Assembly (NCBI GenBank): GCA_024638845.1
Contig: JAHEJN010000012.1
Span: 1-57,438, forward strand
DNA: 57,438 nucleotides
Direction of reading: 5' to 3'
DNA from: Acidimicrobiales bacterium
GTDB lineage: Bacteria > Actinomycetota > Acidimicrobiia > Acidimicrobiales > JAHEJN01
The notes below the pieces were generated by a model, which was not told the origin of the DNA, did not search any database, and saw nothing but the letters and a program-made list of their open reading frames with translations. How positions within the stretch are numbered: the stretch's first letter is position 1; every line of letters begins with the position of its first letter. Below, one piece after another: positions 23,017 to 55,949 of this stretch. A program made the translations under genes and the position numbers.

Positions 23017-23411
23017 TGCCCGGCAGCTTCCTGGTTCTCGACCGCCGGGCTCAGGTACACGACCTCCGGCGCGTCGACCATTCCGTAGCTACGGGCAGCA
23101 GCGACGATGCGTTCGGGCGCTTCCATCCGGGCCAGCTCCAACTGCAGGCGGTCGTTCACGCTGGTCGTCGTCGCGATGTCGGTATTCATTCGGTCGAGCT
23201 CGCGTTGGCCCTGGACGATCAACGCGTGGAACATCGCCATCAGCAGGAGTACTCCGAGGATGCTCACCAGGGCTGCCGTCCCGAGCATGCGCACCGTCGA
23301 GCGGGTGGGTTCGAGCGCTTCGAGGGATGCGGGCCGCTGGCGCCGGACCTCTGGCGCCGGAGCAGTCGATGCCCGCCTGCGGACCGGTGCGGTCGCGGTC
23401 ATTGCGCTCAT
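23013..23411 (-). CDS. ftsL: FtsL-like small septal membrane protein
   Basis: 132 residues. The protein has the FtsL layout: a basic/Pro-rich cytoplasmic N-terminus, one membrane helix (LGTAALVSILGVLLLMAMFH, about 43-62), and an extracytoplasmic coiled coil (QRELDRMNTDIATTTSVNDR) ending in an acidic tail. FtsL sequences diverge strongly, so the call rests on topology and on position between rsmH and ftsI, where ftsL is nearly always found. It overlaps both neighbours by ATGA. Confidence 0.82.
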   Translation of the reverse strand: MSAMTATAPVRRRASTAPAPEVRRQRPASLEALEPTRSTVRMLGTAALVSILGVLLLMAMFHALIVQGQRELDRMNTDIATTTSVNDRLQLELARMEAPERIVAAARSYGMVDAPEVVYLSPAVENQEAAGQ

Positions 23412-24361
23412 GCGGCGATCTCGAGCTTCTCGAACACCCGAAGTCTCGCACTGGCCGCCCGGGGGTTGCGCTCTTTCTCCTCCGCGGTCGGGGTCACGCC
23501 GCCGCGCCGAATCAACGCGATGGAACCCTCGGGGGCAAGCTCCACGGGGAGACCCCGCGGGGACGGCGAAACCGCCTCGGCCGCCCGCAACACCGCCTTC
23601 ACGATGCGGTCTTCGCCGGAGTGATAGGTGAGGACCGCGCCGCGGCCGCTGGGGAGGAGACGGTCGATCGCCTGTTCCAGCGCCGGTTCGAGCACGTCGA
23701 GCTCCCGGTTGACTGCGATCCGCAAGGCCTGGAACGTGCGCTTGGCCGGATGCCCGCCGCGACGACGCGCCGCAGCCGGAATGGCGCGGCGAACGAGCTC
23801 GGCCAGCTCGGCGGTCCCCGAGACCGGACGAGCGGCGACGATCGCATCGGCGATCCGCGACGCGAAGCGCTCGTCCCCGTAGCGCCTGATCACTGCGGCC
23901 AGTTCCTTGCCGTCGGCCTGGTTCACCAGCACCTCAGCGGTCAGCTCCTGGTCGGTGTCCATCCGCATGTCGAGCGGGCCATCGTTGCGGTAGCTGAAGC
24001 CACGCTCGGGAAGGTCGACCTGCGGCGAGCTGACGCCGAGGTCGAAGAGCACGCCGACCACGTTCGCCACCGAGAGATCATCGAGACTGGCGGCGAGACG
24101 ATCGAACCGGCAGCGGACGAGCCGAACCCGCTCGCCGTGCGATGCGAGTCGATCGGCCGCGGCGGCGAGAGCCATCGGGTCCTGATCGAGTCCGACCAAG
24201 CTGAGATCGTCACGACTCCGGAGAATGGCGTCGGCATGACCGCCGCCGCCGAGGGTTGCATCGACGACGACCCCGGTGGGCACGGCGGCGAACACGTCGA
24301 CGATCTCGGCGATCATCACCGGTTCGTGTTCGAATCCCCCGCCGTTGTGTCGGCCGCCCAT
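23408..24361 (-). CDS. rsmH: 16S rRNA (cytosine1402-N4)-methyltransferase RsmH/MraW
   Basis: 317 residues. SAM-dependent methylation of C1402 in the 16S rRNA decoding site. FEHEPVMIAEIVD near the N-terminus, the SAM-binding VDATLGGGGHADAIL, DLGVSSPQVDLPERGFSY, and the late TYHSGEDRIVK are diagnostic. The ATG at 24361 is used because family members start just before this region and GGAG lies 4 nt upstream. A long open frame runs upstream across the structured leader but looks non-coding there. Confidence 0.96.
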   Translation of the reverse strand: MGGRHNGGGFEHEPVMIAEIVDVFAAVPTGVVVDATLGGGGHADAILRSRDDLSLVGLDQDPMALAAAADRLASHGERVRLVRCRFDRLAASLDDLSVANVVGVLFDLGVSSPQVDLPERGFSYRNDGPLDMRMDTDQELTAEVLVNQADGKELAAVIRRYGDERFASRIADAIVAARPVSGTAELAELVRRAIPAAARRRGGHPAKRTFQALRIAVNRELDVLEPALEQAIDRLLPSGRGAVLTYHSGEDRIVKAVLRAAEAVSPSPRGLPVELAPEGSIALIRRGGVTPTAEEKERNPRAASARLRVFEKLEIAA

Positions 24362-24409
24362 CACGCTCCGAATCGAAAGCGAGGACGGGCGGGCGAGAAG
24401 CCCGAGATG

Positions 24410-24538
24410 GGCTCGTTCATCGGCAGTTCTCCGACCAGCGGGCGCACGTCGGGATGTCTCCCCGATCGAGCTAGATGGCAAGCGGGCGGAGTAGGGGCCT
24501 TCCATCTTGCCGGCCGGAGAACTGCCCATGAACGAGCC
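24410..24538 (-). ncRNA. Structured leader RNA between mraZ and rsmH
   Basis: Two 24-nt arms (24410-24433 and 24515-24538) pair perfectly except for one G-G mismatch and enclose 81 nt. Inside are a GGCAAG/CTTGCC stem (24506-24511 with 24477-24482) and a TCGGG/CCCGA hairpin (24449-24465). An AGATGG/CCATCT pairing would compete with the first inner stem. Just downstream AGCCC-atctc-GGGCT could compete with the outer stem. The site, just before mraW (rsmH) in an actinobacterium, is where the published mraW RNA motif lies; a match to its consensus is untested. Confidence 0.55.
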
Positions 24539-24590
24539 GAGACCGGCACCGAACACGGAGGGGTGGATGGGACATGGGCGGGGTGGCACA

Positions 24591-25004
24591 TCACAACCAC
24601 GCTCCGCTGGAGATCTCCGAGCCCGAGCTGTTCTCCTGGACCTGGGTCCACGCATCAGGGCGGTAGATCTCGATTCGGTTGAGGGCACCGATGACCACGG
24701 TGTCGGCCTCGATCTTCACGGCGTCGCGTTGCGACTGGGGAATGGTGAGCCGTCCTTGCTTGTCGATCCTCACCACGTTGGCTCCCGCCGAGAACACCCG
24801 GAGGCTGTCCTGGGGGAACTCCCCTGCCTGCGCTTGGTGACTCAGGCGGGCAATTGCTTCGGCGAAGCCCTCGGTGCTGTACAGGCAGAGCCTGCCGTTC
24901 ATCTGGGCCAGATAGCCGGTGTCACCGAGGAGGTCACGAAACGAGACGGGCAGGGCCAAGCGGCCCTTGTCGTCCAGTGATCGCTCGAAGGTCCCGACGA
25001 ACAC
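24591..25004 (-). CDS. mraZ: Transcriptional regulator MraZ
   Basis: 137 residues. MraZ is a DNA-binding AbrB-fold protein that represses the dcw operon, including itself. The two repeats are visible: FVGTFERSLDDKGRLALP and VVRIDKQGRLTIPQSQRDA, each with the DxxGR element. The start is GTG at 25004, set by the conserved F-x-G-T-F N-terminus; the upstream AAAGG is about 12 nt away, so initiation may be weak. TGGGG boxes lie over its promoter. Confidence 0.96.
   Translation of the reverse strand: MFVGTFERSLDDKGRLALPVSFRDLLGDTGYLAQMNGRLCLYSTEGFAEAIARLSHQAQAGEFPQDSLRVFSAGANVVRIDKQGRLTIPQSQRDAVKIEADTVVIGALNRIEIYRPDAWTQVQENSSGSEISSGAWL

Positions 25005-55566: not shown

Positions 55567-55946
<380 letters not shown>

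Positions 55947-55949
<3 letters not shown>

Follow-up and report, generated by a model that had tools for sequence, protein, structure and literature searches.

A class-wide structured RNA element between mraZ and rsmH in Acidimicrobiia, with a possible role in the control of rsmH

The stretch of DNA analysed here (hereafter the window) is 57,438 nucleotides (nt) in length and is one of the contigs of a 3.7-Mb draft genome of an Acidimicrobiales bacterium. On its minus strand lie, in order, mraZ (24591..25004; PF02381 [MraZ], 78 bits, over the cut-off), rsmH, encoding the 16S rRNA m4C1402 methyltransferase (23408..24361; PF01795 [Methyltransf_5], 343 bits, over the cut-off), a DivIC/FtsL-like gene whose DivIC assignment scores under its curated cut-off, and a transpeptidase (FtsI-like) gene. 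There are two candidate starts for rsmH, a GTG at 24364 and an ATG at 24361, and 229 nt separate the mraZ stop from this ATG. An initial annotation had noted a large multibranched RNA structure in this gap. The question raised by the locus is what this structure is, how widely it is conserved, and what it might do to the genes that follow it. (Elsewhere in the window, a bacterial RNase P class A RNA is found at 55573-55947 on the plus strand, with a score of 196 bits.)

The element spans 24410..24538 on the minus strand, on which all of the features described below also lie, and folds as a three-way junction. The coordinates of the initial annotation implied the plus strand; this was wrong, as mraZ and rsmH are encoded on the minus strand and the fold is stronger there (-82.8 kcal/mol, z = -8.8, equalled by 0 of 200 shuffles, versus -72.8 kcal/mol and z = -5.5 on the plus strand). 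The two 24-nt arms that it described, pairing with one mismatch across 81 nt, were located at 24410-24433 and 24515-24538, and belong to an outer stem, P1, of 29 pairs and 30 nt per side with one G.G mismatch (5' strand, 24509..24538; 3' strand, 24410..24439). The two further stems that it placed inside the outer stem were also recovered in the minus-strand fold, each supported by both folding and covariation. P2 (24473..24507) is a hairpin with a 13-nt loop, CCCUACUCCGCCC, closed by AGGC/GCUU and containing the loop core ACUCCGCCCG (24483..24492). P3 (24444..24471) is a hairpin with a CGGGGAGACAUCCCG apex. The proposal of competing alternative pairings found no support: the minimum-energy structure predominates, every P1 pair has a probability of at least 0.976 (the weakest pairs are at 0.50 in P2 and 0.44 in P3), and opening the P1 5' arm costs a computed 46 kcal/mol or so. 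Of the suggested regulatory switch over the cell-wall operon, one part is supported, in that the element lies where it could control rsmH and its cluster, and the other, a switch between folds, is not. Neither a site resembling an intrinsic terminator (a stem plus a U run), the mark of a transcription attenuator, nor a sigma-70-like site was found in 24300-24700 (the promoter scan was limited to the sigma-70 type).

Conservation was surveyed in the order. Among 59 genomes (own included), rsmH was detected in 56, and 30 loci were kept; mraZ was detected in 27 of these, and the three loci with no mraZ match (L022, L030, and L032) were left out. In 25 of the 27 loci (own included), the mraZ-rsmH gap contains a variant of the same loop enclosed by a long stem, a count that rests on the loop pattern and fold. 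Most of the 25 share the same inner hairpins, and the inner folds differ in others (e.g. L015, L021, L023, L029, and L031). In the two loci from which the element is missing, L013 (G007) and L016 (G035), the gaps measure just 17 and 58 nt, which would fit a joint loss of element and gap. The seed alignment, A2, holds 19 of the 25 sequences (own included) and leaves out six that are misaligned or divergent (L009, L010, L015, L020, L023, and L031). Covariation in the outer stem, the check that the initial annotation had named, is present in these 19 sequences: 23 of the 28 modelled P1 pairs show two-sided change, with 93.4% of cells paired. For the whole structure the corresponding values are 32 of 48 pairs and 91.9% of cells, compared to 80.9% in shuffles (none of 500 reached the observed value) and 34-46% when the pairing partners are slid. 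RNAalifold, unaided, recovers P1, the outer part of P2, and the core of P3 (38 pairs); in certain relatives the inner pairing of P2 has no single clear register.

The element extends through the class. A covariance model built from the element alignment (R1), which scores the window copy, a seed member, at 143 bits, matches 237 of 296 class genomes at E<=0.01; the 59 genomes with no match were counted under stricter filters, and some genomes are incomplete. About 31 of the 237 positives are small genomes of a single family, f106, with E-values of only 1e-4 to 1e-2. When five matches from this weakest-scoring family were opened, all were found between mraZ and rsmH and were judged genuine: their rsmH is only about 30-34% identical and the surroundings are AT-rich, the loop retains CUCCGCCC, and an AUG lies within P1. 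In a phylum sample of 296 genomes at E<=0.1, R1 gave 17 matches, 15 in the class and two outside it at E about 0.07; the latter (L096 and L097) are without mraZ, rsmH, or such a loop, and were rejected. The element seems dispensable in some members, given the 59 class genomes with no match and the two order relatives that are without it.

For comparison at class level, 100 loci (own included) were assembled from the 30 strongest matches, 10 found in the phylum run, and 60 hand-picked among the matches listed; being chosen from model hits, this set leans towards good matches, and family f106 is not represented in it. An alignment fitted to the model (A4) comprises 98 of these sequences, as L094 and L095 fell under the E cut used against reverse-strand matches. 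It shows two-sided change in 46 of 48 pairs, with 91.8% of cells paired. Some class members have no P3 and are 93-104 nt in length. The most conserved part of the element is the loop, the core ACUCCGCCCG being identical in 85 of the 100 sequences; no loop was recognised by pattern in L272 and L276. In public data the pattern occurs in at least 120 stretches. Among the 120 listed, 49 have it directly upstream of rsmH, and by script the remaining 71 do not. Five Actinomycetota stretches from among these 71 were opened: in two (L167 and L182) the element is truncated by the end of the stretch yet carries the fold, adding two to the 49, and in the other three the pattern is not enclosed by a long stem. 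We regard the remaining 66 as chance matches. Among inspected cases, rsmH is the sole gene context of the element. Records with the loop upstream of rsmH are labelled, for instance, Acidimicrobiia, Acidimicrobiales, Ilumatobacteraceae, Candidatus Microthrix, and marine actinobacterium MedAcidi-G2B, and it is from such labels that we identify the class as Acidimicrobiia. Other labels are broader or unexpected (Actinomycetota, Actinomycetes, Acidobacteria, and Bifidobacterium breve metagenome-assembled genomes) and may be misnomers.

Within the window, the 3' side of P1 contains the candidate Shine-Dalgarno (SD) sequence (GGAG, 24429..24432, fully paired in P1) and the AUG of a putatively translated 19-codon leader ORF, MNEPISGFSPARPRFRFGA (24361..24420), the UGA of which overlaps the rsmH AUG (UGAUG). 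Both the GGAG and the AUG are paired at 0.99-1.00 in the window fold. The candidate SD of rsmH itself (GGAG, 24366..24369) and the rsmH start are mostly paired when a wider part of the gap is folded. Of the 100 class sequences, 41 have in the 3' strand of P1 both an SD-like sequence and an rsmH start in frame (frequently in the form CGRGGGGCUGNNN-AUG), although the classification needs an SD with ATG or GTG and some of the GTG calls may be spurious. In a further 10 this strand opens a coupled leader ORF ending within 12 nt of an rsmH start, so that one or other start lies inside the closing stem in 51 of 100, P3-less forms among them. In 43 there is no start codon with an SD in P1, and in six the ORF is uncoupled; start burial is thus common but not universal. 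By eye, the GGGGGCUGC-like sequence topping P1 is retained also where no AUG follows, which suggests that P1 is more than a lock on a ribosome binding site. Two other explanations of the conserved core were considered. A small peptide (MEGPYSARLP..., open in the window) was rejected, as 1-base length changes in relatives disrupt the frame (by eye), and base pairing between the loop and mRNA further downstream found no support, the mean best complement being 6.71 nt versus 6.66 nt in shuffled sequences (n = 96).

The fold, covariation, loop conservation, position, and overlap with start sites thus describe a real, class-wide structured RNA element in the mraZ-rsmH gap. As for its role, the best reading, to which we give an even chance, is that of a cis-acting post-transcriptional element that controls rsmH through a trans-acting factor; repression, the factor itself, and an effect on the downstream genes are what we infer. 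The leader would act in cis on rsmH, which follows mraZ in the cluster of division and cell-wall genes, with the very stable, long P1 displaying the P2 hairpin and its conserved 10-nt loop core. Since no part of the element is more conserved than the loop, a recognition site is likely there, and the core would probably be where a trans-acting factor docks; a protein is a likelier candidate for this factor than a metabolite. In roughly half of the sampled relatives the SD and start codon within P1 belong either to rsmH or to a coupled leader ORF, so that folding of P1 should keep rsmH translation low in these. Release could follow if ribosomes leaving mraZ, a helicase, or RNase III opened or cut P1; alternatively, a bound factor may keep P1 closed. 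Simple ligand gating is implausible for so stable a stem.

The nearest counterpart is the mraW RNA (RF01746), with which the initial annotation had considered the element might be identical. Membership of this family was rejected: RF01746 has no match in the window, nor in 24300-24700 at E<=10, it reaches its gathering score (50 bits) in 0 of the 59 order genomes (own included), and the loop and architecture differ. As a positive control the model scored over the cut-off in one of two control genomes (Thermus composti and C. glutamicum), and it did so in 7 of 149 phylum genomes. Other Rfam matches were under the gathering score and are taken as chance, both those in 24300-24700 (SMAD5-AS1_3 and sR53) and those in class loci (microRNA, EBv-sisRNA-2, and CC2171 families). 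The two RNAs resemble each other in their slot between mraZ and rsmH (mraW), their long closing hairpin, their conserved pyrimidine-rich apical loop, and their occurrence in Actinomycetota. They differ in that the mraW RNAs, as read from RF01746 hits rather than from the paper describing them, are single long hairpins with the loop ACUUCCCC or a near variant, whereas the element forms a three-way junction, or a version of it that lacks P3, and carries the loop ACUCCGCCC. In the accessible sections of the literature, mraW is listed for Actinomycetales (PMC2864571), while the element belongs to another class; in Corynebacterium, a transcript start is placed downstream of or inside the motif (PMC5784534, PMC3890552; see also PMC9569102), and these sections report no tested function for it. 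Our literature search, which covered few subscription papers, likewise found no function for mraW and no Acidimicrobiia element at this place.

That the element is an mraW homologue which has diverged past detection by the model, sharing ancestor and function, is a tentative possibility; as it is compatible with the other mechanisms considered here, its probability is not to be added to theirs. The shared slot and long closing hairpin speak for it, and the apical loops can be aligned as ACUYC(G)CCC. Cross-matches do not: RF01746 finds nothing in the window (E<=10) or in 20 class loci (E<=5), and R1 reaches at most 25 bits on seven mraW loci, scores that largely reflect hairpin bias, as the reverse strand is often nearly equal. 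The element appears to be a new variant in an mraW-type leader slot, possibly but not necessarily of common descent with the mraW RNA. Another structured RNA at a dcw cluster, the UpsM leader of Rhodobacteraceae (PMC5089854, as far as the accessible text describes it), lies upstream of mraZ and has a Rho-independent terminator; the element sits elsewhere, and no terminator was found with it. The slot may have other occupants in Actinomycetota. In two AT-rich genomes of phylum family f66 (loci L286 and L293) the gap holds a different long hairpin, in which TTTGTYGGCTGRAG... pairs with its own complement; the two have an apical GCACCTTGGGCGGGG in common and may represent a third type of RNA for this slot. 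In five loci of other families (L282, L332, L305, L323, and L328) it seems, by eye, to hold a small ORF and no conserved hairpin.

Several rival mechanisms were weighed against trans-factor control. P1 may simply be an RNase III site, the 29-pair duplex being cut to part the mraZ mRNA from the mRNA of rsmH onwards and so give the two separate stabilities. The duplex is long and near-perfect, of at least about two helical turns, and an RNase III domain gene is present in the genome (PF14622, 133.6 bits), although cleavage itself is predicted. This reading also suits relatives in which P1 leaves the start codon uncovered. RNase III reportedly cleaves the mraZ mRNA of C. glutamicum, according to a 2016 study, but that cut is in the mraZ coding region rather than in the mraZ-rsmH gap. 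As it also leaves the conserved 10-nt loop and the conservation of P3 unexplained, we consider it somewhat unlikely. A metabolite riboswitch, sensing a cell-wall precursor or SAM, would fit the complex junction, the conserved loops, and the biosynthetic cluster downstream. It is nevertheless very unlikely: no second gene context was seen among inspected cases (several contexts are common for riboswitches, but not obligatory), there is no terminator-like site in 24300-24700, and the outer stem is too stable for gating by a ligand. Least credible, indeed extremely improbable, is a DNA-level feature such as a palindrome, a mobile element, or an MraZ operator. The arms do form a near-perfect inverted repeat, but the covariation includes G-U pairs on the coding strand, the loop conservation is strand-specific, and the element is single-copy. 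A sequence search of the draft genome matches only the element and its own arms, and a model search returns the element, its reverse strand, and one weak match at E 0.49; on this ground a mobile or repeated element was rejected.

A more specific proposal concerns the identity of the factor. Ribosomal-protein leaders and ermC autoregulation are examples of autogenous leaders that mimic rRNA, and the element resembles them in that a structured leader covers the start site of a gene for an rRNA-binding protein; it differs in that its binding is putative and its resemblance to rRNA is within reach of composition. RsmH might regulate itself, the loop core copying 16S rRNA 1396-1405 and bound RsmH shutting down its own translation, which would link the cell-wall cluster to ribosome maturation; we consider this unlikely. 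The same goes for the stronger statement that the element acts as a decoy for the decoding-site strand of 16S rRNA, by which free RsmH would bind the loop and silence its own mRNA and, through coupling, the cell-wall and division genes downstream, and which we hold to be improbable. RsmH would be free when few immature 30S subunits require methylation. If this were true, ribosome maturation would set cell-wall output.

The match on which this proposal is based is 9/10 between the core ACUCCGCCCG and 16S ACACCGCCCG, a segment that includes C1402, the RsmH target; the next-best core match in the 16S and 23S of this genome is 7/10. Composition-matched permutations reach 9/10 at a frequency of 0.0007 in register and 0.004 within 6 nt of the site. 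The restriction of the element to rsmH among inspected cases, and the survival of a C-rich core in the five f106 sequences despite their AT-rich surroundings, also agree with mimicry. On the other hand, about 4% of permuted cores reach 9/10 anywhere in 16S. The same is true of 25 of the 391 10-mers of 24300-24699 (core included), two stretches outside the element matching the same 1400 site at 9/10, so that C-rich composition explains much of the match. Also against mimicry, the U opposite A1398 is invariant (100/100), the G1401 position is A in 4/100, the f106 core ends in A (8/10), and the mraW loop has no match to 16S 1396-1405. In the accessible parts of two reports, RsmH is described as active on the small subunit and not on naked rRNA (PMC6821322), and METTL15, a human RsmH relative, as binding RNA in vitro with no specificity for sequence (PMC10828496).

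Whichever factor is involved, a class-wide RNA with very strong covariation, and with no match over the cut-off in Rfam 15, heads the cell-wall and division cluster of these bacteria. Its overlap with start codons and its conserved loop make control of rsmH and of the downstream cluster experimentally approachable.
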